64,000 nucleotides of DNA from Pseudomonas cavernicola (GTDB lineage: Bacteria > Pseudomonadota > Gammaproteobacteria > Pseudomonadales > Pseudomonadaceae). The position numbers were made by a program, and so were the translations under genes. Positions 3,881 through 64,000 of this stretch are shown here, in pieces (position 1 is the stretch's first letter; every line of letters starts with the position of its first letter). The stretch spans positions 5,001-69,000 of the forward strand of contig NZ_QYUR01000001.1 in NCBI RefSeq assembly GCF_003596405.1, in the 5' to 3' direction. Under the pieces are notes generated by a model. The model did no database searches, was not told the DNA's origin, and saw only the letters and a program-made list of their open reading frames with translations.

Positions 3881-4085
3881 TCCTCCACTCCCCAAAATCG
3901 GGCGAGGGTGACGGTCGCGTCAGGTCATGCGCAACGGGGTGGAAGGATTTCGCTAAGCCGTGACCGACGGTTTCGCTAAGTCGTGACCGCCTGTTTCGGA
4001 ACAGGCTGGAAATCGGTCACGTTGATAGCGAAATGAGCGGTCACGCGTTAGCGAAATGGCCGGTCACGGTGGGCCGAAATACGCA

Positions 4086-4091: not shown

Positions 4092-5588
4092 CGTCAGGCA
4101 GAAGTTGCTCAGGCTTTTCAAGTTCAGATAGTCGATCTGAAAGAGCAGATCAAGTTGCTTCGCCAACGCTTGTTCGGACGTAAATCCGAGCAGTCAGTTG
4201 ACTCAGCCACTCCACAGTTGGCCCTTTTCAACGAAGCGGAAAGTGTCGCCATGCCGGTCACCGACGAGACTGGTGAAGAGGAAGTCGTTACTCCAGCCAC
4301 ACGCCGTGGCAAGCGCAAGCCGTTACCTGCCGATCTGCCGCGCGTCGAAGTCGTCCACGAACTGCCCGAGCATGAACTGACCTGTGCCTGCGGTTGCCGC
4401 AAGCACAGCATCGGCGAAGAAGTCAGCGAACAGCTGGAGATCGTGCCGATGCAGATCCGCGTGATCAAACACATCCGCAAGGTTTACGCTTGCCGCGACT
4501 GCGAAGCTGCACCGGTCACCGCTGACAAACCGGCACAGCTGATCGAAAAAAGCCTGGCCAGCCCCAGCGTGTTGGCGATGCTGCTGACCACCAAATACGT
4601 CGACGGCTTGCCGCTGCACCGGTTCGAAAAAGTCCTGGGCCGTCACGGTGTCGATATCCCGCGGCACACCCTGGCGCGCTGGGTTATCCAGTGCGGTGAG
4701 CACCTGCAACCGCTGCTCAACCTGATGCGCGATCGGTTGCTGGCAAGCCCTGTCATCCACTGCGATGAAACGCGGGTGCAGGTGCTGAAAGAACCTGATC
4801 GAGACCCGACTAGCCAATCCTGGATGTGGGTGCAAACCGGTGGACCGCCAGATAAACCGGTGATCCTGTTTGACTACTCGACCAGCCGAGCGCAGGAGGT
4901 GCCGTCGCGCCTGCTCGAAGGTTATCGCGGCTACCTGATGAGCGATGACTACGCCGGGTATAACGCTTTGGGTGCGCAACCGGGTGTCGAGCGTTTGGGC
5001 TGCTGGGCCCATGCACGGCGCAAGTTCGTCGAGGCGCAAAAAGTACAACCCAAAGGCAAGACCGGTCGGGCCGATATCGCGCTGAACCTGATCAACCAGC
5101 TGTACAGCATCGAACGCGACCTCAAAGAGGTCGGTGATGACCAGCGACTGGCTGGTCGTCAGCAACACAGCCTGCCAGTACTGGAGCAACTCAAAAGCTG
5201 GCTGGAGAAAACCCAGCCGCAGGTCACCGCGCACAATGCCTTGGGCAAAGCGGTCAACTACTTGGCCAGCAACTGGAGCAAGCTCGAACGCTACGTCGAA
5301 GCCGGACATCTGCCCATCGATAATAACGCCGCCGAGCGCGCCATCCGGCCCTTCGTCATCGGCCGCAAGAACTGGTTGTTCAGTGACACCCCCAGGGGTG
5401 CGACCGCCAGCGCCCAACTCTACAGCCTGGTGGAAACCGCCAAAGCCAACGGCCAAGAGCCTTATACGTGGCTGCGCCACGTACTCGAGCGCTTGCCACA
5501 GGCCACCTCGGTAGAGCATTACGAAACCTTACTCCCGTGGAACTGCACGCCAGAAATGCCACGGTAAATAGAAAGCCCATCCCTTAAA

Positions 5589-48632: not shown

Positions 48633-50903
48633 ATGTTAAATCGAGAGCTCGAAGTCACCCTCAATCTGGCCTTCAAGGAGGCCCGCACCAAGCGCCATGA
48701 GTTCATGACGGTTGAGCACCTCCTGTTGGCGCTATTGGACAACGAAGCCGCTGCCAGTGTCCTGCGCGCTTGCGGCGCCAACCTAGATAAGCTGCGGCAT
48801 GATCTGCAGGAATTCATCGACTCCACCACGCCGTTGATTCCTCAGCATGATGAGGAGCGTGAAACTCAGCCAACACTGGGCTTCCAGCGTGTACTGCAGC
48901 GCGCGGTTTTCCATGTGCAGAGTTCAGGTAAGCGTGAAGTAACCGGTGCCAATGTGTTGGTGGCGATCTTTAGCGAGCAAGAGAGTCAGGCCGTATTCCT
49001 GCTCAAGCAGCAAAGTGTTGCCCGTATCGATGTGGTCAACTTCATTGCTCACGGTATCTCCAAGGTTCCAGGGCATGCCGATCATTCGGAAAGTGACCAG
49101 GAAATGCAGGATGACGAGGGTGGTGAGTCTTCCTCCTCGGGCAATCCGCTGGATGCCTATGCCAGCAACCTGAATGAGTTGGCGCGCCTGGGTCGTATTG
49201 ATCCTCTGGTCGGGCGTGAGTTGGAGGTCGAGCGCGTTGCGCAGATCCTCGCGCGGCGGCGTAAGAATAATCCACTGTTGGTGGGTGAGGCTGGTGTTGG
49301 CAAGACGGCCATCGCCGAAGGTCTGGCTAAGCGTATCGTCGATAATCAGGTGCCGGATTTGCTCGCGGATAGCGTGGTGTATTCCCTTGATCTCGGCGCT
49401 TTATTGGCCGGCACTAAGTACCGTGGCGACTTCGAGAAGCGTTTCAAGGCCTTGCTCAACGAATTGCGCAAGCGGCCGCATGCGATCCTGTTCATCGATG
49501 AGATTCACACCATCATCGGTGCTGGCGCGGCGTCTGGGGGCGTGATGGATGCGTCCAATCTGCTCAAGCCGATGTTGTCTTCCGGGGAAATCCGTTGCAT
49601 CGGCTCGACTACGTTCCAAGAGTTTCGCGGAATCTTTGAGAAGGATCGCGCGCTGGCGCGGCGCTTCCAGAAAGTGGATGTGAGTGAGCCATCGGTGGAA
49701 GACACCATTGGCATCCTTCGCGGTCTCAAGGCGCGTTTCGAGCAGCATCACAGTATCGAGTACAGCGATGAATCGCTGCGAGCTGCGGCCGAACTGGCGT
49801 CGCGCTATATCAACGATCGTCATATGCCGGACAAGGCTATCGACGTGATCGATGAGGCTGGCGCTTACCAGCGTCTACAGCCGTTAGACAAGCGTGTTAA
49901 GCGCATAGAAGTGGTGCATGTTGAGGACATCGTCGCGAAAATCGCGCGTATTCCGCCTAAGCATGTCAACACTTCGGATAAGGAGTTGCTGCGTAATCTG
50001 GAGCGCGACCTCAAGTTGACGGTGTTTGGCCAGGATGCTGCGATCGACTCTCTATCCACGGCTATCAAGTTGTCCCGCGCTGGGTTGAAGTCACCGGATA
50101 AGCCGGTGGGTTCCTTTCTTTTCGCCGGGCCTACGGGCGTCGGCAAGACTGAAGCTGCACGGCAGTTGGCCAAGGCGATGGGTATCGAGTTGGTGCGTTT
50201 CGACATGTCCGAGTACATGGAGCGCCATACGGTTTCGCGGCTGATCGGTGCGCCGCCGGGCTATGTCGGTTTCGATCAAGGCGGCTTGCTGACCGAAGCC
50301 ATCACCAAGATGCCGCATTGCGTGCTGCTCTTGGATGAAATCGAGAAGGCGCATCCGGAGGTCTTTAACCTGCTGTTGCAAGTGATGGATCACGGCACTC
50401 TGACCGACAACAACGGACGCAAGGCGGATTTCCGCAACGTCATCCTGATCATGACTACCAATGCTGGCGCGGAAACCGCGGCGCGGGCTTCTATCGGCTT
50501 CACCCATCAGGATCACTCCACGGATGCCATGGAAGTGATCAAGAAGAGCTTTTCGCCAGAGTTCCGTAACCGTCTGGACACCATTATCCAGTTTGGTCGC
50601 CTGAGTCACGAAGTGATTAAGAGCGTGGTGGACAAGTTCCTCACCGAGTTGCAGGCGCAACTGGAGGATAAGCACGTCACGCTTGAAGTTAGTGACGCGG
50701 CGCGCGGTTGGCTGGCTGCTGGTGGCTATGATTCACAGATGGGTGCTCGACCAATGGCTCGCCTGATTCAGGATAAGATCAAGCGCCCACTAGCTGAGGA
50801 AATTCTCTTCGGCGAATTGGCTGAGCATGGCGGTGTCGTGCACATCGATGTGAAGGATGGTGAGCTGAGCTTTGACTTCGAGACCACGGCTGAAATGGCG
50901 TAG
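48633..50903 (+). CDS. clpA: ATP-dependent Clp protease ATPase subunit ClpA
   Basis: A 756-residue AAA+ unfoldase that works with ClpP. The N-domain (1-145) binds ClpS. D1 has Walker [14 protein letters not shown] near 217 and Walker [16 protein letters not shown]2 has Walker [14 protein letters not shown] near 498, the pore loop with [13 protein letters not shown], and [14 protein letters not shown]. An acidic linker ([20 protein letters not shown]) follows the N-domain. Length is standard. Cotranscribed with clpS; a terminator follows 20 bases after the stop. Confidence 0.97.
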
Positions 50904-50922
50904 TCATCAACTGTCGAGAAAT

Positions 50923-50952
50923 GAAAACGCCCGGCAATTGCCGGGCGTTTTC
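50923..50952. terminator. Bidirectional terminator between clpA and infA
   Basis: GAAAACGCCCGGCA-AT-TGCCGGGCGTTTTC: a perfect palindrome between the convergent clpA and infA, with a T-rich end on each strand. Confidence 0.93.
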
Positions 50953-50964
50953 ATTGGGACTGGC

Positions 50965-51183
50965 TTAGCGCGCGCGGTAAGTAATGCGGCCCTTGCTCAA
51001 GTCGTAGGGCGTCAATTCAACACGTACTTTGTCACCGGTCAGGATGCGAATGTAGTTCTTGCGCATCTTGCCGGAAATGTGCGCGGTTACGACGTGCCCA
51101 TTTTCCAACTCCACACGGAACATGGTGTTGGGCAGGGTGTCGACGACAGTGCCTTCCATTTCGAAGCTGTCTTCTTTCGACAT
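50965..51183 (-). CDS. infA: Translation initiation factor IF-1
   Basis: A 72-residue S1/OB-fold factor that occupies the ribosomal A site during initiation. The sequence is almost invariant: [40 protein letters not shown] and the RITYRAR end. The start is the ATG at 51183, which gives the standard length. It sits between clpSA and ate/aat, the same order as PAO1 PA2621-PA2617. Confidence 0.98.
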
Positions 51184-51284
51184 GCAGTAAAGCCCTCGGT
51201 ATCCAATGAATGGCCCGGTGCAACTGGCGCCAGGCAAAAGCGGCGTGCATTGTGCCCGAAAATAGGTCTGCCCGCCAAGGTAAT

Positions 51285-51458
51285 TAGGCTCTGTCGAAGT
51301 TTAATGACGAGCCGCGTTGTCGCCTGAAAGCGCGCCAGGCAAGGCGCAGGCCGCAGGCAATGGTTATTCCCTTGCCAAGGACTGCAACACAGCATGGCAC
51401 GTTTTCAGGCACAACCCGAAGGGTCCGCGCGGCCGTCATTAAACATCAACAGAGCCTA
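51285..51458. repeat. 174-bp MITE-like inverted repeat between infA and ate
   Basis: The ends are TAGGCTCTGTCGAAGTTTAA (left) and, on the other strand, TAGGCTCTGTTGATGTTTAA, both followed by TGACG. The similarity extends inward (CGCCTGAAAGCGCGCCA against TGCCTGAAAACGTGCCA), so most of the unit can fold. No reading frame inside. The outer TAG of the right end is the stop codon of ate. Confidence 0.82.
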
Positions 51459-52163
51459 GGAGAGGGTTATCCAGCGCTGATTGACGAACAGCTCAATGGG
51501 GCGGTATTGGGTCTTGTAGTTCATCTTCCGGCAGCTCTTGATCCAGTAACCAAGATAGACAGCTTCTAAGCCTAGGCGAACGGTTTCGCCAATCTGCCAG
51601 AGGATGGCATAACGGCCCAAGCTGCGGCGCTCCTCGTCAGGATCGTAGAAGGTGTAAACCGCGGAAAGACCATTGGGCAGTACGTCGGTAACTGCGACGG
51701 CGAGCAAGCGACCGGACAGCCGGAACTCGTAAAAGCGGGAAAAAGGCAGGTCACGCACCAAAAAGGTGGCGAATTGATCGCGATTGGGTGGATACATGTC
51801 GCCATCGGCGTGGCGCTGTTCGATATAGCGCGCGTAGAGAGCGTAATACTCTTCACTGAAGGTTGGGCGTACGGCGTGAACCTGAAGCTCTTCGTTGCGT
51901 TTGAGGATTCGTCGTTGCTGGCGGTTGGGTGTGAATTGCGCCGCAGGAATGCGCGCCGGCACGCAGGCTGTGCAGCGCTGGCAATGTGGGCGATATAGGT
52001 GATCACCGCTGCGGCGAAAACCCATTTCCGAAAGCTCGGCGTAGACCTCCATATCCATTGGCTGGCTGGGGTCAAGAAACAGCGTCGTGGCCTGTTCCTC
52101 GGGCAGATAGCTGCAGGGATGCGGCTGAGTGGCGTAGAACTTAAGGCGAGCCAGCTCGGTCAT
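51456..52163 (-). CDS. ate: Aspartate/glutamate leucyltransferase (Bpt)
   Basis: A 235-residue transferase that adds Leu from Leu-tRNA to proteins starting with Asp or Glu, creating a ClpS-recognised N-degron. The N-terminal Cys cluster ([14 protein letters not shown] near 12-25 and [15 protein letters not shown] near 58-72) and the C-terminal [20 protein letters not shown] block are diagnostic. Its TAG stop is provided by the adjacent inverted repeat, so the last residues (WITLS) may differ from relatives. Downstream of aat in the same direction, 54 bases apart. Confidence 0.94.
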
Positions 52164-52217
52164 GATTAACCCTCAAGAGAGGCTTAGAGTAAGTGTATGC
52201 CAGCCTGCCGAACTCGC

Positions 52218-52898
52218 CTAGGCAAGCCAGTCCGCCGTATTTGCTTGATTCAGGTGACGAGCCAGGTAGCCTGCGAACTCCGTGCGAGGAATGGCGCGGG
52301 CGCCAAAGCTCTGCAGGTGCGGAGTGGGCATTTGGCAGTCGACCAGCACGAAGCCCCAGGCCTTGAGGTGTTCGACCAGCGTGATAAATCCCACTTTGGA
52401 GGCGTTATCGGTTCGACTGAACATGGACTCACCGAAAAACAGCTGCCCCATCGCCAGCCCATAAAGCCCGCCAACTAGCTCCCCGTTGAGCCAGACTTCG
52501 ACCGAGTGGGCAATGCCGCGCCGATGCAATTCCAGATACGCGGCTTGCATGCTGGAGGTGATCCAGGTGCCCTCGGAATAAGTGCGCGGAGCAGCGCAGG
52601 CGTGGATTACGGCAGCGAAATCCCGATCAAAGGTTACCTGGTAGCGGGCTTGACGCAGGGTCTTGTTCAGGCTGCGTGAGATGTGAATTTCGCCCGGAAA
52701 TAGCACGGTGCGTGGATCCGGTGACCACCAGAGAATCGGCTGGTCGTCCTGATACCAGGGAAAGCAACCGTGACGGTAAGCCTGGATCAGGCGGTCAGCG
52801 CTCAGGTCGCCGCCGGCCGCGAGCAGGCCGTTAGGTTCGCGCAAGGCTTTCTCGAGAGAGGGGAAGTCCAGGGAGTCGCGCTGTAGCCAGGTCAGCAT
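52218..52898 (-). CDS. aat: Leucyl/phenylalanyl-tRNA-protein transferase
   Basis: A 226-residue enzyme that adds Leu or Phe to N-terminal Lys or Arg, marking proteins for ClpS-ClpAP. Conserved blocks: [59 protein letters not shown], and [20 protein letters not shown] with MFSR. Length is normal. Part of the minus-strand run trxB-aat-ate-infA; the gap to trxB is 59 bases. Confidence 0.96.
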
Positions 52899-52957
52899 GA
52901 TGGGCTATGACCGAGAGGGTAGGGCGAAGGTGGGCGCTGGGCGCCCACCTGTAGGGC

Positions 52958-53920
<963 letters not shown>

Positions 53921-54133
53921 TCATAAGCCTTTGTCACAAAAGAGAATGCGTGCTCCAATTGAGCCGCACGGAAGATGCTGTTGGCTATGCTACACCGAAG
54001 CGGGAGAGGCCGGCAAAACGCGCCATAGGCATGTCGCGTGACGTGGCATCAGGCAGGCAAACCCGTACAATAGGCCAAGTTTTCGCCGTCAATCGATTGT
54101 TGGGCGCGCCGTAGGCGCAGGAAAAGACGCGTT

Positions 54134-56539
54134 TTGAAGAACTCCACCACTACCGCTCAAGCACCAGTTTGGCGTCAGCAATTGCACTACCGGCTCAAGG
54201 AAGGTGCGCTGATCGCGCTGGGTGCGCTTTGCCTTTATCTTTGGATGGCGCTGCTGACCTATGATCAGAATGATCCGGGTTGGACCCATACCAGCAATGT
54301 CGTGCAGGTTCAGAATGCCGCTGGCCGTGCCGGTGCGTGGTTTGCCGATATCTTATTCATGGCCCTCGGTTATTTCGCCTACCTGTTTCCACTGCTTTTG
54401 GCGGTGAAGACATTCCAGGTCTTCCGCGGCCGTCACCAGCCCTGGCAGTGGAGCGGCTGGTTGTTTTCCTGGCGGCTGATTGGTTTGGTGTTTCTGGTGT
54501 TGTCCGGCGCGGCCTTGGCCTATATCCATTTCCATTCCGGTTCCAGCTTGCCCGCTTCGGCTGGCGGTGCGCTAGGTGAAAGCCTGGGGCAGTTGGCCGT
54601 TGCTGCGCTGAATGTGCAGGGCAGCACGTTGCTGTTTATCGCGTTGTTCCTGTTTGGCCTGACGGTGTTTAGCGACCTGTCCTGGTTCAAGGTCATGGAT
54701 TTGACCGGCAAGATCACCCTAGACCTGTTCGAGCTGATCCAAAACGCCACCAACAATTGGTGGAGTGCGCGGGTCGAGCGCAAGCAATTGGTAGCCCAGT
54801 TGCGCGAAGTCGATGATCGCGTCAACGAAGTAGCCGCACCGATGGTGCATGACCGGCGTGAGCAGGCGAAGGTCAAAGAGCGCCTGATCGAGCGTGAAGA
54901 AGCCCTGAGCAAGCACATGAGCGAGCGCGAGAAGCGCCCCGCACCGGTGATTACTCCGCCTGCTGCACCTAAAGCCGTTGAGCCGAGCAAGCGCGTACAG
55001 AAAGAGAAGCAAGCGCCGCTGTTCGTCGATAGCGCGGTCGAGGGCACCTTGCCACCGATTTCCATCCTCGATGCGGCCGAGAAGAAGCAGAAGAAATATT
55101 CCCCTGAGTCCCTAGAGGCCATGTCGCGTCTGCTGGAGATCAAGCTCAAAGAGTTCGGTGTCGAGGTCATCGTCGAGTCCGTGCATCCGGGGCCGGTGAT
55201 TACCCGTTTCGAAATCCAGCCAGCTGCCGGGATCAAAGTCAGCCGCATCTCAGGTTTGGCCAAGGACTTGGCGCGCTCGTTGGCGGTGATCAGCGTGCGC
55301 GTGGTGGAAGTTATCCCAGGCAAGACCACTGTGGGTATTGAGATACCTAACGAGGACCGCCAGATCGTGCGCTTCTCTGAAGTGTTGTCCTCGCCCGAGT
55401 ACGACGAGGCCAAGTCGCCGGTAACCCTGGCGCTGGGGCATGACATCGGTGGCCGTCCGGTGATTACCGACCTGGCGCGGATGCCACACCTGCTGGTCGC
55501 CGGTACCACCGGTTCGGGTAAGTCGGTGGGCGTGAATGCCATGATCCTGTCGATTCTGTTCAAGTCCGGACCAGAAGATGCCCGGCTGATCATGATCGAC
55601 CCCAAAATGCTTGAGCTATCGATCTACGAAGGTATTCCGCACTTGCTCTGCCCAGTCGTGACCGACATGAAAGAGGCTGCCAACGCCCTGCGTTGGAGCG
55701 TTGCCGAAATGGAGCGGCGCTATAAGCTGATGTCGAAAATGGGGGTGCGAAACCTTGCCGGCTTCAATCGCAAGGTGAAGGATGCAGAAGAGGCGGGAGA
55801 GCCGCTGGTCGATCCGCTGTATAAGCGCGAAAGCATCCACGACGAAGCGCCACTGCTGAAGACCCTGCCAACCATCGTGGTGGTGGTCGACGAATTCGCC
55901 GACATGATGATGATCGTCGGCAAGAAGGTTGAGGAGCTGATCGCGCGTATCGCACAGAAGGCGCGGGCTGCGGGTATTCACTTGATCCTTGCCACTCAGC
56001 GGCCGTCGGTGGATGTAATCACCGGCTTGATCAAGGCCAACATCCCAACGCGTATGGCGTTCCAGGTCTCCAGCAAGATCGACTCGCGGACCATCCTCGA
56101 CCAGGGCGGCGCGGAGCAACTGCTCGGCCACGGTGACATGCTTTATCTGCCGCCGGGCACTGGCCTGCCGATCCGCGTTCACGGCGCCTTCGTTTCCGAC
56201 GAAGAGGTTCATCGTGTAGTCGAAGCCTGGAAACTGCGTGGTGCGCCCGACTACATCGAGGACATTCTCGCCGGCGTGGAAGAGGCTGGCAGCGGCTTCG
56301 ACGGTGGCAGTGGCGAAGGTGGCGGCGAAGGCAGTGAGGACGATCCGTTGTACGACGAAGCCGTGCGTTTCGTTACCGAGAGCCGCCGCGCTTCGATTTC
56401 CGCTGTACAGCGCAAGCTGAAAATTGGCTACAACCGCGCCGCGCGGATGGTCGAAGCCATGGAAATGGCCGGCGTAGTGACGTCTATGAACACCAACGGC
56501 TCCCGTGAAGTGATTGCGCCGGGCCCGATTCGCGATTAA
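54134..56539 (+). CDS. ftsK: DNA translocase FtsK
   Basis: An 801-residue septal DNA pump that clears chromosome dimers by activating XerCD. Four N-terminal membrane helices (about 28-180) anchor it at the septum, followed by a short charged linker with a coiled coil (about 210-310). The motor has Walker [16 protein letters not shown] near 456 and Walker [17 protein letters not shown] near 580. A Gly/Glu-rich spacer leads to the gamma winged helix (about 735-800; [20 protein letters not shown]), which reads KOPS. The start is TTG at 54134, supported by the conserved [20 protein letters not shown] that follows and GGAAAAG upstream. Bases from 55771 are duplicated in inverted form at the window end. 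Confidence 0.95.
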
Positions 56540-56569
56540 CGCCTACCCATGGATTCAATGAGGATTTAC

Positions 56570-57196
56570 ATGCGCCTGATCCGCATGCTGTTGCTGGCAG
56601 CTATGGCTTTTGCCGTCATCCCAGCCCAGGCCGACGACGAGGCCGCCGTTCAGCGCCTGACCCAACTGCTCAGCCAGGCGCAGACCATCACTGCGCGTTT
56701 CTCCCAGCTGACCCTGGACGGTACTGGCACGCAGTTGCAGGAAACGGCTGGTGAGCTGTCCTTGAAGCGTCCGGGTTTGTTCCGCTGGCATACCGACGCG
56801 CCACAAGAGCAGTTACTGGTCTCCAATGGCCAGAAAGTTTGGTTGTACGACCCGGATCTGCAACAAGTGACGATTCAGAAGCTCGACCAGCGTTTGACTC
56901 ATACGCCGGCTTTGCTGCTTTCCGGGGATGTTTCGCAGATTCGCCAGAACTTCGACATCACCTTCAAAGAAGCTGGCGATGTGGTGGACTTCACCCTCAA
57001 GCCGAAAGCCAAGGACACGCTGTTCGATAACCTGCGTCTGTCCTTCCGCAAAGGGGTGATCAACGACATGCAGTTGATCGACAGTGTCGGCCAGCGCACC
57101 AACATTCTGTTCCTCGGAGTGAAGATGAACGCGGCGCTGGACGCCGGCCAGTTCACTTTCGATATCCCGGCCGGCGCTGACGTGATTCAAGAGTAA
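56570..57196 (+). CDS. lolA: Outer-membrane lipoprotein carrier LolA
   Basis: A 208-residue periplasmic chaperone that carries lipoproteins from LolCDE to LolB. The signal peptide [20 protein letters not shown] is cleaved before [10 protein letters not shown]. The mature protein has [20 protein letters not shown], with the Arg/Trp that close the hydrophobic cavity, and [17 protein letters not shown]. The ATG at 56570 is chosen because AGGA lies five bases upstream; ATGs at 56549 and 56558 are less likely. It lies 30 bases after ftsK. An identical second copy is at 62575-63201. Confidence 0.95.
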
Positions 57197-57229
57197 ATGC
57201 TCAAGTGTAAGAGGTGCTGACCCCAGCCC

Positions 57230-58555
57230 ATGGACCTGTTCCGTAACACCCCCGTCGCTCAACCCCTGGCCGCCCGCCTGCGTGCAGCCAGCTTGGACGA
57301 GTACGTCGGTCAGGAACACCTGCTGGCCCGTGGCAAGCCGCTACGCGAGGCGCTGGAGCAGGGCGCGCTGCACTCGATGATCTTCTGGGGCCCGCCGGGT
57401 GTCGGCAAAACCACCCTGGCGAGGCTGCTGGCGCAGGTTTCCGATGCACATTTCGAAACGCTCTCGGCGGTGTTGTCCGGGGTGAAGGAGATTCGCCAGG
57501 CGGTGGAGATTGCCCAGCAGCATGCTGCGCAGTACGGCCGGCGAACGATTCTCTTCGTCGATGAAGTGCATCGTTTCAACAAGTCGCAGCAGGATGCCTT
57601 TCTGCCTTACGTGGAAGACGGCACGCTGATCTTCATCGGTGCGACCACCGAGAACCCCTCGTTCGAGCTGAACAACGCGCTGCTTTCCCGTGCCCGCGTC
57701 TATGTGCTGAAAAGCCTGGATGAGTCGGCGTTACGCAAACTGGTAGCGCGCGCCCTGAATGAGCCGAAAGGCTTGGGCGATCGTCACTTAAGCTTGCCGG
57801 AAGACAGTTTCAAGATTCTCCTGGCGGCCGCCGATGGTGATGGTCGGCGGTTGCTGAACTTCCTTGAGAACGCCGCCGATCTGGCCGAAGACGATAGTGA
57901 GATCAGTGTCGGGCTGTTGCAAAACCTGCTGGGTGACAGCCGTCGTCGTTTCGATAAGGGCGGCGAAGCGTTCTATGACCAGATTTCTGCACTGCATAAG
58001 TCAGTCCGCGGCTCCAGCCCGGACGGCGCGTTGTATTGGTTCGCGCGCATGCTCGACGGTGGCTGCGATCCGCTGTATATCGCCCGCCGTGTGGTGCGTA
58101 TGGCCAGTGAAGACATTGGCAACGCCGATCCGCGCGCGCTGAGCTTATGCCTGTCCGCCTGGGACGTGCAGGAGCGCCTGGGTAGTCCAGAAGGTGAGTT
58201 GGCGGTGGCGCAAGCCATCGTGTATTTGGCTTGCGCACCAAAGAGCAACGCGGTCTACAACGCATTCAACGCCGCGATGCGGGATGCCGCGGAGCATGGC
58301 TCGCTGGAAGTGCCGCTGCATCTGCGTAATGCCCCGACCAAATTGATGAAAGAGCTGGGCTATGGCGACGAATACCGCTATGCCCACGATGAGCCGGAAG
58401 CCTATGCCGCTGGCGAGGATTACTTCCCGGACAGCCTCGAACCGCGCAACTACTACCAGCCGGTGCCGCGCGGCCTAGAGTTGAAAATCCGTGACAAGCT
58501 GAATCATCTCGCGGCGCAGGATCGCGCTAGCCCTAGGCAACGGAGAAAACCATGA
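57230..58555 (+). CDS. rarA: Replication-associated recombination protein A
   Basis: A 441-residue AAA+ clamp-loader-like ATPase (MgsA/RarA/WRNIP1 family) acting at stalled forks. N-terminal [20 protein letters not shown] is conserved. Walker A is [14 protein letters not shown] near 52, Walker B and sensor [20 protein letters not shown], then [20 protein letters not shown]. The C-terminal tetramerisation domain includes [20 protein letters not shown]. This copy is full length; the inverted copy carries three deletions. Its stop overlaps the crcB start (ATGA). Confidence 0.96.
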
Positions 58556-58924
58556 TTCGAGTGGTTCTTGCGGTTGCTGTGGCGGTACAGCGGGCACCTT
58601 ATTGCGCTTTGCGACCACCAACTGGATCAGTGCCCATTGGCCGCAGCACTTCAATGTCGGTACGCTGCTGGTCAATATTGTTGGCTGCCTGCTGATTGGC
58701 TATCTCTACGGCCTATTCTTGCTTCGCCCGGAGATACCGCTGGAGTTGCGCGCCGGTTTGGTGGTTGGCTTTCTCGGTGGGCTGACGACCTTTTCCTCCT
58801 TTACCCTCGACACGCTGCGCTTGCTGGAAAGCGGGCAGTTGCCGCTAGCTCTCGCTATGTGGCACTCAGCGTGCTCGGCGGCCTGCTCGCCACTTGGGTG
58901 GGCTTGTCCCTGACCAAACTCTGA
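58552..58924 (+). pseudogene. crcB: crcB, copy with two single-base deletions
   Basis: Fluoride channel Fluc/CrcB: small four-helix protein, dual-topology dimer exporting F-. This copy starts correctly ([10 protein letters not shown]) but lost one G near 58586 (GTGGCGG against GTGGGCGG in the other copy) and one G near 58855 (CTCTCGCTATG against CTCTCGGCTATG). The rest matches the intact copy at 60848-61222 base for base. Since both changes are in short homopolymers, they are more likely sequencing errors than mutations. Expected position in the operon between rarA and serS. Confidence 0.85.
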
Positions 58925-58931
58925 TGACTGA

Positions 58932-60840
<1,909 letters not shown>

Positions 60841-60847
60841 TCAGTCA

Positions 60848-61222
60848 TCAGAGTTTGGTCAGGGACAAGCCCACCCAAGTGGCGAGCAGGCCGCCGAGCA
60901 CGCTGAGTGCCACATAGCCGAGAGCTAGCGGCAACTGCCCGCTTTCCAGCAAGCGCAGCGTGTCGAGGGTAAAGGAGGAAAAGGTCGTCAGCCCACCGAG
61001 AAAGCCAACCACCAAACCGGCGCGCAACTCCAGCGGTATCTCCGGGCGAAGCAAGAATAGGCCGTAGAGATAGCCAATCAGCAGGCAGCCAACAATATTG
61101 ACCAGCAGCGTACCGACATTGAAGTGCTGCGGCCAATGGGCACTGATCCAGTTGGTGGTCGCAAAGCGCAATAAGGTGCCCGCTGTACCGCCCACAGCAA
61201 CCGCAAGAACCACTCGAATCAT
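60848..61222 (-). CDS. crcB: Fluoride channel CrcB (intact copy)
   Basis: A 124-residue, four-helix inner-membrane fluoride exporter. Motifs: [15 protein letters not shown] (residues 11-25) with the conserved Gly/Arg, [20 protein letters not shown] with the pore Asn, and [20 protein letters not shown] with the Phe box and the Na+-binding TTFSSF loop. It functions as a dual-topology dimer. This copy is complete and gives the true sequence of the frameshifted one at 58552. If the hairpin is an artefact, the genome has one crcB. Confidence 0.93.
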
Positions 61223-62541
61223 GGTTTTCTCCGTTGCCTAGGGCTAGCGCGATCCTGCGCCGCGAGATGATTCAGCTTGTCACGGATTTTCAACTCTAGG
61301 CCGCGCGGCACCGGCTGGTAGTAGTTGCGCGGTTCGAGGCTGTCGGGAAGTAATCCTCGCCAGCGGCATAGGCTTCCGGCTCATCGTGGGCATAGCGGTA
61401 TTCGTCGCCATAGCCCAGCTCTTTCATCAATTTGGTCGGGGCATTACGCAGATGCAGCGGCACTTCCAGCGAGCCATGCTCCGCGGCATCCCGCATCGCG
61501 GCGTTGAATGCGTTGTAGACCGCGTTGCTCTTTGGTGCGCAAGCCAAATACACGATGGCTTGCGCCACCGCCAACTCACCTTCTGGACTACCCAGGCGCT
61601 CCTGCACGTCCCAGGCGGACAGGCATAAGCTCAGCGCGCGCGGATCGGCGTTGCCAATGTCTTCACTGGCCATACGCACCACACGGCGGGCGATATACAG
61701 CGGATCGCAGCCACCGTCGAGCATGCGCGCGAACCAATACAACGCGCCGTCCGGGCTGGAGCCGCGGACTGACTTATGCAGTGCAGAAATCTGGTCATAG
61801 AACGCTTCGCCGCCCTTATCGAAACGACGACGGCTGTCACCCAGCAGGTTTTGCAACAGCCCGACACTGATCTCACTATCGTCTTCGGCCAGATCGGCGG
61901 CGTTCTCAAGGAAGTTCAGCAACCGCCGACCATCACCATCGGCGGCCGCCAGGAGAATCTTGAAACTGTCTTCCGGCAAGCTTAAGTGACGATCGCCCAA
62001 GCCTTTCGGCTCATTCAGGGCGCGCGCTACCAGTTTGCGTAACGCCGACTCATCCAGGCTTTTCAGCACATAGACGCGGGCACGGAAAGCAGCGCGTTGT
62101 TCAGCTCGAACGAGGGGTTCTCGGTGGTCGCACCGATGAAGATCAGCGTGCCGTCTTCCACGTAAGGCAGAAAGGCATCCTGCTGCGACTTGTTGAAACG
62201 ATGCACTTCATCGACGAAGAGAATCGTTCGCCGGCCGTACTGCGCAGCATGCTGCTGGGCAATCTCCACCGCCTGGCGAATCTCCTTCACCCCGGACAAC
62301 ACCGCCGAGAGCGTTTCGAAATGTGCATCGGAAACCTGCGCCAGCAGCCTCGCCAGGGTGGTTTTGCCGACACCCGGCGGGCCCCAGAAGATCATCGAGT
62401 GCAGCGCGCCCTGCTCCAGCGCCTCGCGTAGCGGCTTGCCACGGGCCAGCAGGTGTTCCTGACCGACGTACTCGTCCAAGCTGGCTGCACGCAGGCGGGC
62501 GGCCAGGGTTGAGCGACGGGGGTGTTACGGAACAGGTCCAT
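61219..62541 (-). pseudogene. rarA: rarA, right copy with three single-base deletions
   Basis: Mirror copy of the intact rarA at 57230. It has lost one C near 62508 (ACCCTGG against ACCCCTGG), one C near 62085 (TTTCCGTG against TTTCCCGTG) and one G near 61347 (CCCGACAG against CCCGGACAG). It therefore reads only in pieces, but the Walker A segment and C-terminal domain are otherwise unchanged. Its length is exactly three bases shorter than the intact copy (1323 against 1326). The losses are in homopolymers, as expected of raw long-read error. Confidence 0.9.
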
Positions 62542-62574
62542 GGGCTGGGGTCAGCACCTCTTACACTTGAGCAT

Positions 62575-63201
62575 TTACTCTTGAATCACGTCAGCGCCGG
62601 CCGGGATATCGAAAGTGAACTGGCCGGCGTCCAGCGCCGCGTTCATCTTCACTCCGAGGAACAGAATGTTGGTGCGCTGGCCGACACTGTCGATCAACTG
62701 CATGTCGTTGATCACCCCTTTGCGGAAGGACAGACGCAGGTTATCGAACAGCGTGTCCTTGGCTTTCGGCTTGAGGGTGAAGTCCACCACATCGCCAGCT
62801 TCTTTGAAGGTGATGTCGAAGTTCTGGCGAATCTGCGAAACATCCCCGGAAAGCAGCAAAGCCGGCGTATGAGTCAAACGCTGGTCGAGCTTCTGAATCG
62901 TCACTTGTTGCAGATCCGGGTCGTACAACCAAACTTTCTGGCCATTGGAGACCAGTAACTGCTCTTGTGGCGCGTCGGTATGCCAGCGGAACAAACCCGG
63001 ACGCTTCAAGGACAGCTCACCAGCCGTTTCCTGCAACTGCGTGCCAGTACCGTCCAGGGTCAGCTGGGAGAAACGCGCAGTGATGGTCTGCGCCTGGCTG
63101 AGCAGTTGGGTCAGGCGCTGAACGGCGGCCTCGTCGTCGGCCTGGGCTGGGATGACGGCAAAAGCCATAGCTGCCAGCAACAGCATGCGGATCAGGCGCA
63201 T
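62575..63201 (-). CDS. lolA: LolA, duplicate copy in the inverted arm
   Basis: Identical in length and translation to the copy at 56570-57196 (208 residues, signal peptide [20 protein letters not shown]). No independent information; probably not a second gene in the organism. Confidence 0.9.
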
Positions 63202-63231
63202 GTAAATCCTCATTGAATCCATGGGTAGGCG

Positions 63232-64000
63232 TTAATCGCGAATCGGGCCCGGCGCAATCACTTCACGGAGCCGTTGGTGTTCATAGACGTCACTACGCCG
63301 GCCATTTCCATGGCTTCGACCATCCGCGCGGCGCGGTTGTAGCCAATTTTCAGCTTGCGCTGTACAGCGGAAATCGAAGCGCGGCGGCTCTCGGTAACGA
63401 AACGCACGGCTTCGTCGTACAACGGATCGTCCTCACTGCCTTCGCCGCCACCTTCGCCACTGCCACCGTCGAAGCCGCTGCCAGCCTCTTCCACGCCGGC
63501 GAGAATGTCCTCGATGTAGTCGGGCGCACCACGCAGTTTCCAGGCTTCGACTACACGATGAACCTCTTCGTCGGAAACGAAGGCGCCGTGAACGCGGATC
63601 GGCAGGCCAGTGCCCGGCGGCAGATAAAGCATGTCACCGTGGCCGAGCAGTTGCTCCGCGCCGCCCTGGTCGAGGATGGTCCGCGAGTCGATCTTGCTGG
63701 AGACCTGGAACGCCATACGCGTTGGGATGTTGGCCTTGATCAAGCCGGTGATTACATCCACCGACGGCCGCTGAGTGGCAAGGATCAAGTGAATACCCGC
63801 AGCCCGCGCCTTCTGTGCGATACGCGCGATCAGCTCCTCAACCTTCTTGCCGACGATCATCATCATGTCGGCGAATTCGTCGACCACCACCACGATGGTT
63901 GGCAGGGTCTTCAGCAGTGGCGCTTCGTCGTGGGATGCTTTCGCGCTTATACAGCGGATCGACCAGCGGCTCTCCCGCCTCTTCTGCATCCTTCACCTTG
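63232..64000 (-). pseudogene. ftsK: ftsK 3' part, right copy (partial, two indels)
   Basis: The last third of FtsK (second half of the motor and the gamma domain), cut by the window end. One missing C near 63267 shifts the last codons (NTNGSVK instead of [12 protein letters not shown]), and one extra C near 63933 breaks the frame at [12 protein letters not shown]. Otherwise identical to 55771-56539. Confidence 0.9.

Follow-up and report, generated by a model that had tools for sequence, protein, structure and literature searches.

The window analyzed here, a stretch of 64,000 nucleotides, corresponds to positions 5001 to 69000 of contig C1 (NZ_QYUR01000001.1; 69,669 bases) of the Pseudomonas cavernicola assembly (8 contigs, 5,626,424 bases), and C1 coordinates are obtained by adding 5000 to those of the window. 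Toward its right-hand end lie ftsK, lolA, rarA, crcB, and serS, in this order, and then the same genes again in mirror image. Alignment of window positions 55771 to 64000 with their own reverse complement (99.35% identity over 8,251 columns, with 42 gap openings) confirmed the inverted repeat described there by the first-pass annotation, and in contig coordinates the self-match spans C1:60100-69669 at 99.3%. Such near identity across kilobases is far beyond chance, which was rejected as an origin of the mirror repeat. The arms are larger than the 4.08 kb first given, at ~4.75 kb each, as the end of the window truncates the second arm, 669 bases of which lie beyond it; the spacer is indeed short, although the loop measures 57 bases rather than 70, a close figure. 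The features of the region are as follows (window coordinates).

48918..59858, forward strand: shared with the terminal part of contig C3 (on its other strand, C3:329515-318588; 99.8% over 10.9 kb), a single-copy chromosome stretch up to the middle of serS
55100..59858, forward strand: first arm, judged real (C1:60100-64858), of which 55771-59851 is the part mirrored inside the window
58941..59858, forward strand: serS, 5' part, interrupted by the turn and with a broken frame (the C1 fragments do not reach the family cut-off; C3:318249-319505 is the full copy)
59853..59858, forward strand: ACCGGT, a self-complementary hexamer at the base of the turn, the same as C3:318588-318593
59859..59915, reverse strand: loop of 57 bases at the turn, consisting of serS sequence that adjoins the break in C3, with 2 indels
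59916..59921, reverse strand: second ACCGGT at the turn
59916..64000, reverse strand: second arm, judged false, which is reversed C3 sequence and continues to the end of C1, 669 bases beyond the window

All the genes listed in the first-pass annotation were found on both arms, in different states of integrity: lolA is intact on both, rarA is intact on the first and split on the second, crcB is broken on the first and intact on the second, and serS, cut at the turn, is frame-broken on both. In profile searches, LolA (TIGR00547) and CrcB (TIGR00494 and NF010830, tested on the mirror-arm copy, since that of the first arm is broken) scored above all the respective cut-offs. The best match of FtsK reached 789 bits, under the model's cut-off of 1566, and the RarA-type AAA ATPase matched several models, each of the listed ones scoring under its cut-off. 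The seryl-tRNA synthetase is represented by an N-terminal fragment, which obtained 91 bits against a cut-off of 302 (TIGR00414). A mobile-element inverted repeat was rejected because the arms carry housekeeping genes. Outside the arms, a perfect 36-base self-complementary sequence (50920-50955), present in C3 too, directly follows a gene that we take to be clpA-like; it may be a terminator or an interspersed palindrome.

Window positions 55700 to 59850, used as a query against the whole assembly, returned three places, the two arms of C1 and contig C3 (329,515 bases), which ends in the region that it has in common with C1. C1:53918-64858 matches C3:329515-318588 on the other strand at 99.8%, with indels and at most one mismatch, and C1:64838-69669 matches C3:318508-323347 at 99.67%, with indels and no mismatch. 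Judging from these alignments, C1 beyond the turn consists entirely of C3 sequence in reverse, and the two contigs, overlapping by 10.9 kb at their ends (window 48918-59858), should form a single one. C3 crosses the position of the turn straight and has an ordinary gene there, a full-length serS. Among the eight serS matches in the assembly, only this one (C3:318249-319505) exceeded the family cut-off, with full length, no internal stop, and a frame that spans 429 residues between stops (426 if counted from the first Met); five of the others were the C1 fragments and two were weak (C3:75684, 49 bits; C6:547168, 27 bits). Thus, serS has not been lost, as a full-length open copy runs through the turn on C3. 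At the level of contigs, this corresponds to the check proposed in the first-pass annotation, in which serS is followed directly into its 3' end: C3 leads from these genes into the whole of serS. A hairpin telomere or a real chromosome end was rejected because C3 continues through the turn. On C1, the self-match extends to the very last base (69669 of 69669), with no unique sequence past the mirror arm; no unique flank beyond the second arm was found in the whole assembly either, as C1 stops within the arm and no other place holds it.

The best named relative, selected through LolA, was Pseudomonas sp. 2FG (99% identity in LolA; 88 to 95% in DNA over the aligned pieces). As far as the turn its locus is collinear with C1, and across it with C3, with small gaps; it contains no inverted self-match. 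When a query made from the junction was compared with 38 genomes (the source genome included), 33 of the 37 others gave a match, and in the 24 of 24 that belong to the same genus the two halves of the query fell at one place on opposite strands, as read from the match table, indicating a single straight locus; one genome (G018) had two extra 28-base matches elsewhere. Among 80 related loci (of 354, from named genomes, some of them stopping short of serS), none had an inverted self-match of at least 500 bp, the longest being of 431 bp and only three reaching 300. Taken at face value, C1 describes a chromosome in which the locus is fixed in two copies, the second of them inverted. We consider this exceedingly improbable, given that C3 leads directly from these genes into a full serS, that nothing in the assembly flanks the mirror arm on its far side, and that none of the 80 related loci has an inverted self-match of 500 bp or more.

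The differences between C1 and C3, nearly all single-base indels, are clustered at the end of each contig: 14 in C1:53918-56400 (5.64 per kb), 1 in C1:56400-63500 (0.14 per kb), and 8 in C1:63500-64858 (5.89 per kb). We used the close relative Pseudomonas sp. 2FG (L057) as a referee for these differences, omitting the turn (C1:64831-64914), where the alignment is ambiguous, which drops two events of the first arm and five of the second. Before C1:58000, 13 of 14 differences favored C1, pointing to errors near C3's own end, and after it, on the first arm, seven of eight favored C3, pointing to errors near C1's own end, although one of these seven votes (C1 64831) stems from the edge created by cutting out the excluded region. 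On the mirror arm, where indel density is raised, the 10 scored differences all favored C3. The event at C1 56369 votes for C3 but means little, since it falls in a stretch absent from 2FG, and the one at C1 60189 votes for C1, contrary to the trend. Consensus quality in the C1/C3 overlap drops toward the contig ends, as expected for a fold-back artifact, a pattern suggesting that each contig rests on ever fewer reads toward its own end. The first C1 error of this end zone lies at window position ~58581, from where C1 should not be trusted; after 59858 it should be replaced by C3.

Scanning of 19.7 kb of the C1 end, at least 15 kb of both ends of C2, C3, C6, and C8, and the whole of C4, C5, and C7 revealed at least one fold-back or zigzag in eight of eight contigs, C1 included. 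Those outside C1 were the following.

C2 end: fold-back with 7.86-kb arms, 99.8%
C3 start: fold-back centered at 3890, with 3.9-kb arms
C4 (15.6-kb contig): fold-back, both halves matching C2:1910054-1917932
C5: fold-back, halves matching C6:753001-760876
C6 start: fold-back, each arm 7.1 kb or longer; the C8 start has part of the straight copy
C7 end: tiny fold-back (0.17 kb at 95%), straight copy at C8:889406-900212
C6:1186326-1216065 (L147, L145, L138): forward-reverse-forward zigzag, 9.2 to 9.9 kb per pass, 12 kb from the contig end
C8:944744-973046 (L141, L139): forward-reverse-forward zigzag, 9.2 to 9.9 kb per pass, 5 kb from the contig end

Both zigzags consist of three passes with other sequence beyond, and a search for a straight copy of the one on C8 elsewhere in the assembly found none. 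There was no fold-back in the stretches scanned at the C2 start, the C3 end, and the C8 start. This recurrence across contigs is explained by a property of the reads and not by a biological cause acting at one locus. It also bears on the idea that a small fraction of the culture carried a true inverted duplication (ftsK'-lolA-rarA-crcB-serS'), generated by snap-back at ACCGGT in serS and sampled by the contig end, beside the normal form seen in C3. The assembly alone is compatible with such a rare variant, the turn does have a hexamer inverted repeat, and snap-back at short inverted repeats is described in the available text of a study of repair-deficient yeast as yielding large palindromic duplications, with repeats of 5 to 9 bp and spacers of 3 to 12 bp (PMC7999016). 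However, here the loop has 57 bases, the mirror arm has a raised indel density and no unique far flank, and seven other contigs carry fold-backs or zigzags at other loci, so that the structure is found in every contig; we regard a duplication in a few cells as very improbable.

Some other peculiarities of the assembly were seen in passing. The end of C2 before its fold-back (L137, C2:2970904-2972270) overlaps the start of the same contig (L020, C2:1-1367) by 1,367 bases at 100%, as if C2 (2.97 Mb) were closed on itself, which would be unusual in a Pseudomonas of 5.6 Mb and may reflect a misjoin. A 1.3-kb element on C8 (about 973375-974720, L139) has 10 further near-identical copies (98 to 100%) in the assembly, and the short repeats on its borders are also found by themselves at many sites; the element looks like an insertion sequence targeting a small interspersed palindromic repeat. 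At the opposite end of the window, positions 1 to 898 match C6:1224807-1223910 on the other strand (99.7%, three mismatches, no gaps), as either a repeat or another contig-end overlap, and sequence taken from the left-hand end of C1 reads as N.

The sequences of 12 turns in the assembly were searched with what we take to be the letters of the SMRTbell adapter, and no clear adapter was found. The C1 turn scored 12 of 90, a value reached by 187 of 200 shuffles. The best score, 23 of 90 (reached by 2 of 200 shuffles), came from a turn on C8, and another C8 turn scored 19 of 90 (18 of 200); by eye, the weak match on C8 is a CAACAACAAA stretch that is found in the arms too. The turns at the C2 end, C4, the C6 start, and C7 have noisy sequence with missing bases nearby. 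Compared with the returning strand, the noisy bases gave a z of 4.0 for C4, beating all 300 shuffles, of 3.4 for C7, not above the best shuffle, and a weak 2.6 for the C2 end; those at the C6 start match the forward strand instead (z of 4.5), so that no general rule emerged by which the noisy bases of a turn represent the returning strand.

Taken together, these sequence comparisons make it very nearly certain that the mirror repeat is an artifact of assembly from a read that doubled back, whatever its origin in the laboratory. This agrees with the first-pass annotation, which invoked a chimeric fold-back read at the end of a contig, given that C1 ends in the mirror arm and C3 runs straight. 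A long read would have followed one strand, turned in the middle of serS, and returned along the other strand; it would have extended C1 beyond its well-covered end, its mirror half being retained as new sequence, and the chromosome would continue straight from window position 59858 into the rest of serS, as it does in C3. Presumably, one or a few such turned reads made the C1 end. Similar artifacts are known from long reads, and the accessible portions of three reports (PMC6218980, PMC12870357, PMC13141652) describe near-perfect self-complementary halves like those found here, at several unrelated loci per data set and with turns without a clear adapter. According to one of them, fold-backs make up ~0.55 to 0.6% of Nanopore genomic reads, are attributed to library preparation, typically have more than 11 bases at the turn in fewer than half of the cases, and are virtually absent from PacBio HiFi data (PMC12870357, available text). 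Another, as far as its available text goes, ranks inverted repeats first among false chimeras in prevalence, with the highest levels in ligation libraries (PMC13141652). Those observations were made in reads, whereas ours come from assembled contigs and therefore provide no per-read rate.

As to how the read turned, the annotation had offered a missed adapter, template switching, or an amplification chimera; no clear adapter remaining at the turn was found, and a missed turn without adapter, a snap-back, and an amplification chimera are all possible causes for C1. The probable one, in our view and with some reservation, is that a turn was missed on a template that was multi-pass or closed in some other way. 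Multi-pass reading of closed templates is favored because of the zigzags on C6 and C8, whose passes of 9.2 to 9.9 kb resemble SMRTbell-type reads with missed turns; unlike such reads, there is no clear adapter at the 12 turns, and C1 shows a single turn, not the three passes seen at C6:1186326-1216065 and C8:944744-973046. The absence of a clear adapter and the rarity of HiFi fold-backs speak against the simplest version of a missed adapter, although not against an artifact. A hairpin molecule formed during amplification or end repair, its 3' end snapping back at ACCGGT...ACCGGT with the 57-base loop, would equally be an artifact and is included in the near certainty expressed above; we hold it to be possible, if somewhat doubtful. 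The C1 turn lies exactly between the two self-complementary hexamers, no adapter is visible, and palindromic reads are, in the available text of one study, common after whole-genome amplification (PMC6218980). Nevertheless, as other turns are noisy and have missing bases, the loop and the hexamer of C1 could be a by-product of consensus building, in which the turn collapsed, and the forward-reverse-forward zigzags of C6 and C8 fit multi-pass reading more simply.

Whichever way the read turned, the mirror repeat is almost certainly absent from the bacterial chromosome and is not a biological feature of the organism. The assembly is rated as 100% complete with 1.3% contamination, and the presence of a mirror stretch in each of its eight contigs despite that rating is a warning about quality, without biological importance. 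False duplicate genes are the result, here a second lolA and extra pieces of ftsK, rarA, crcB, and serS, and such mirror stretches would mislead the mining of genomes for palindromes, duplications, or broken essential genes.
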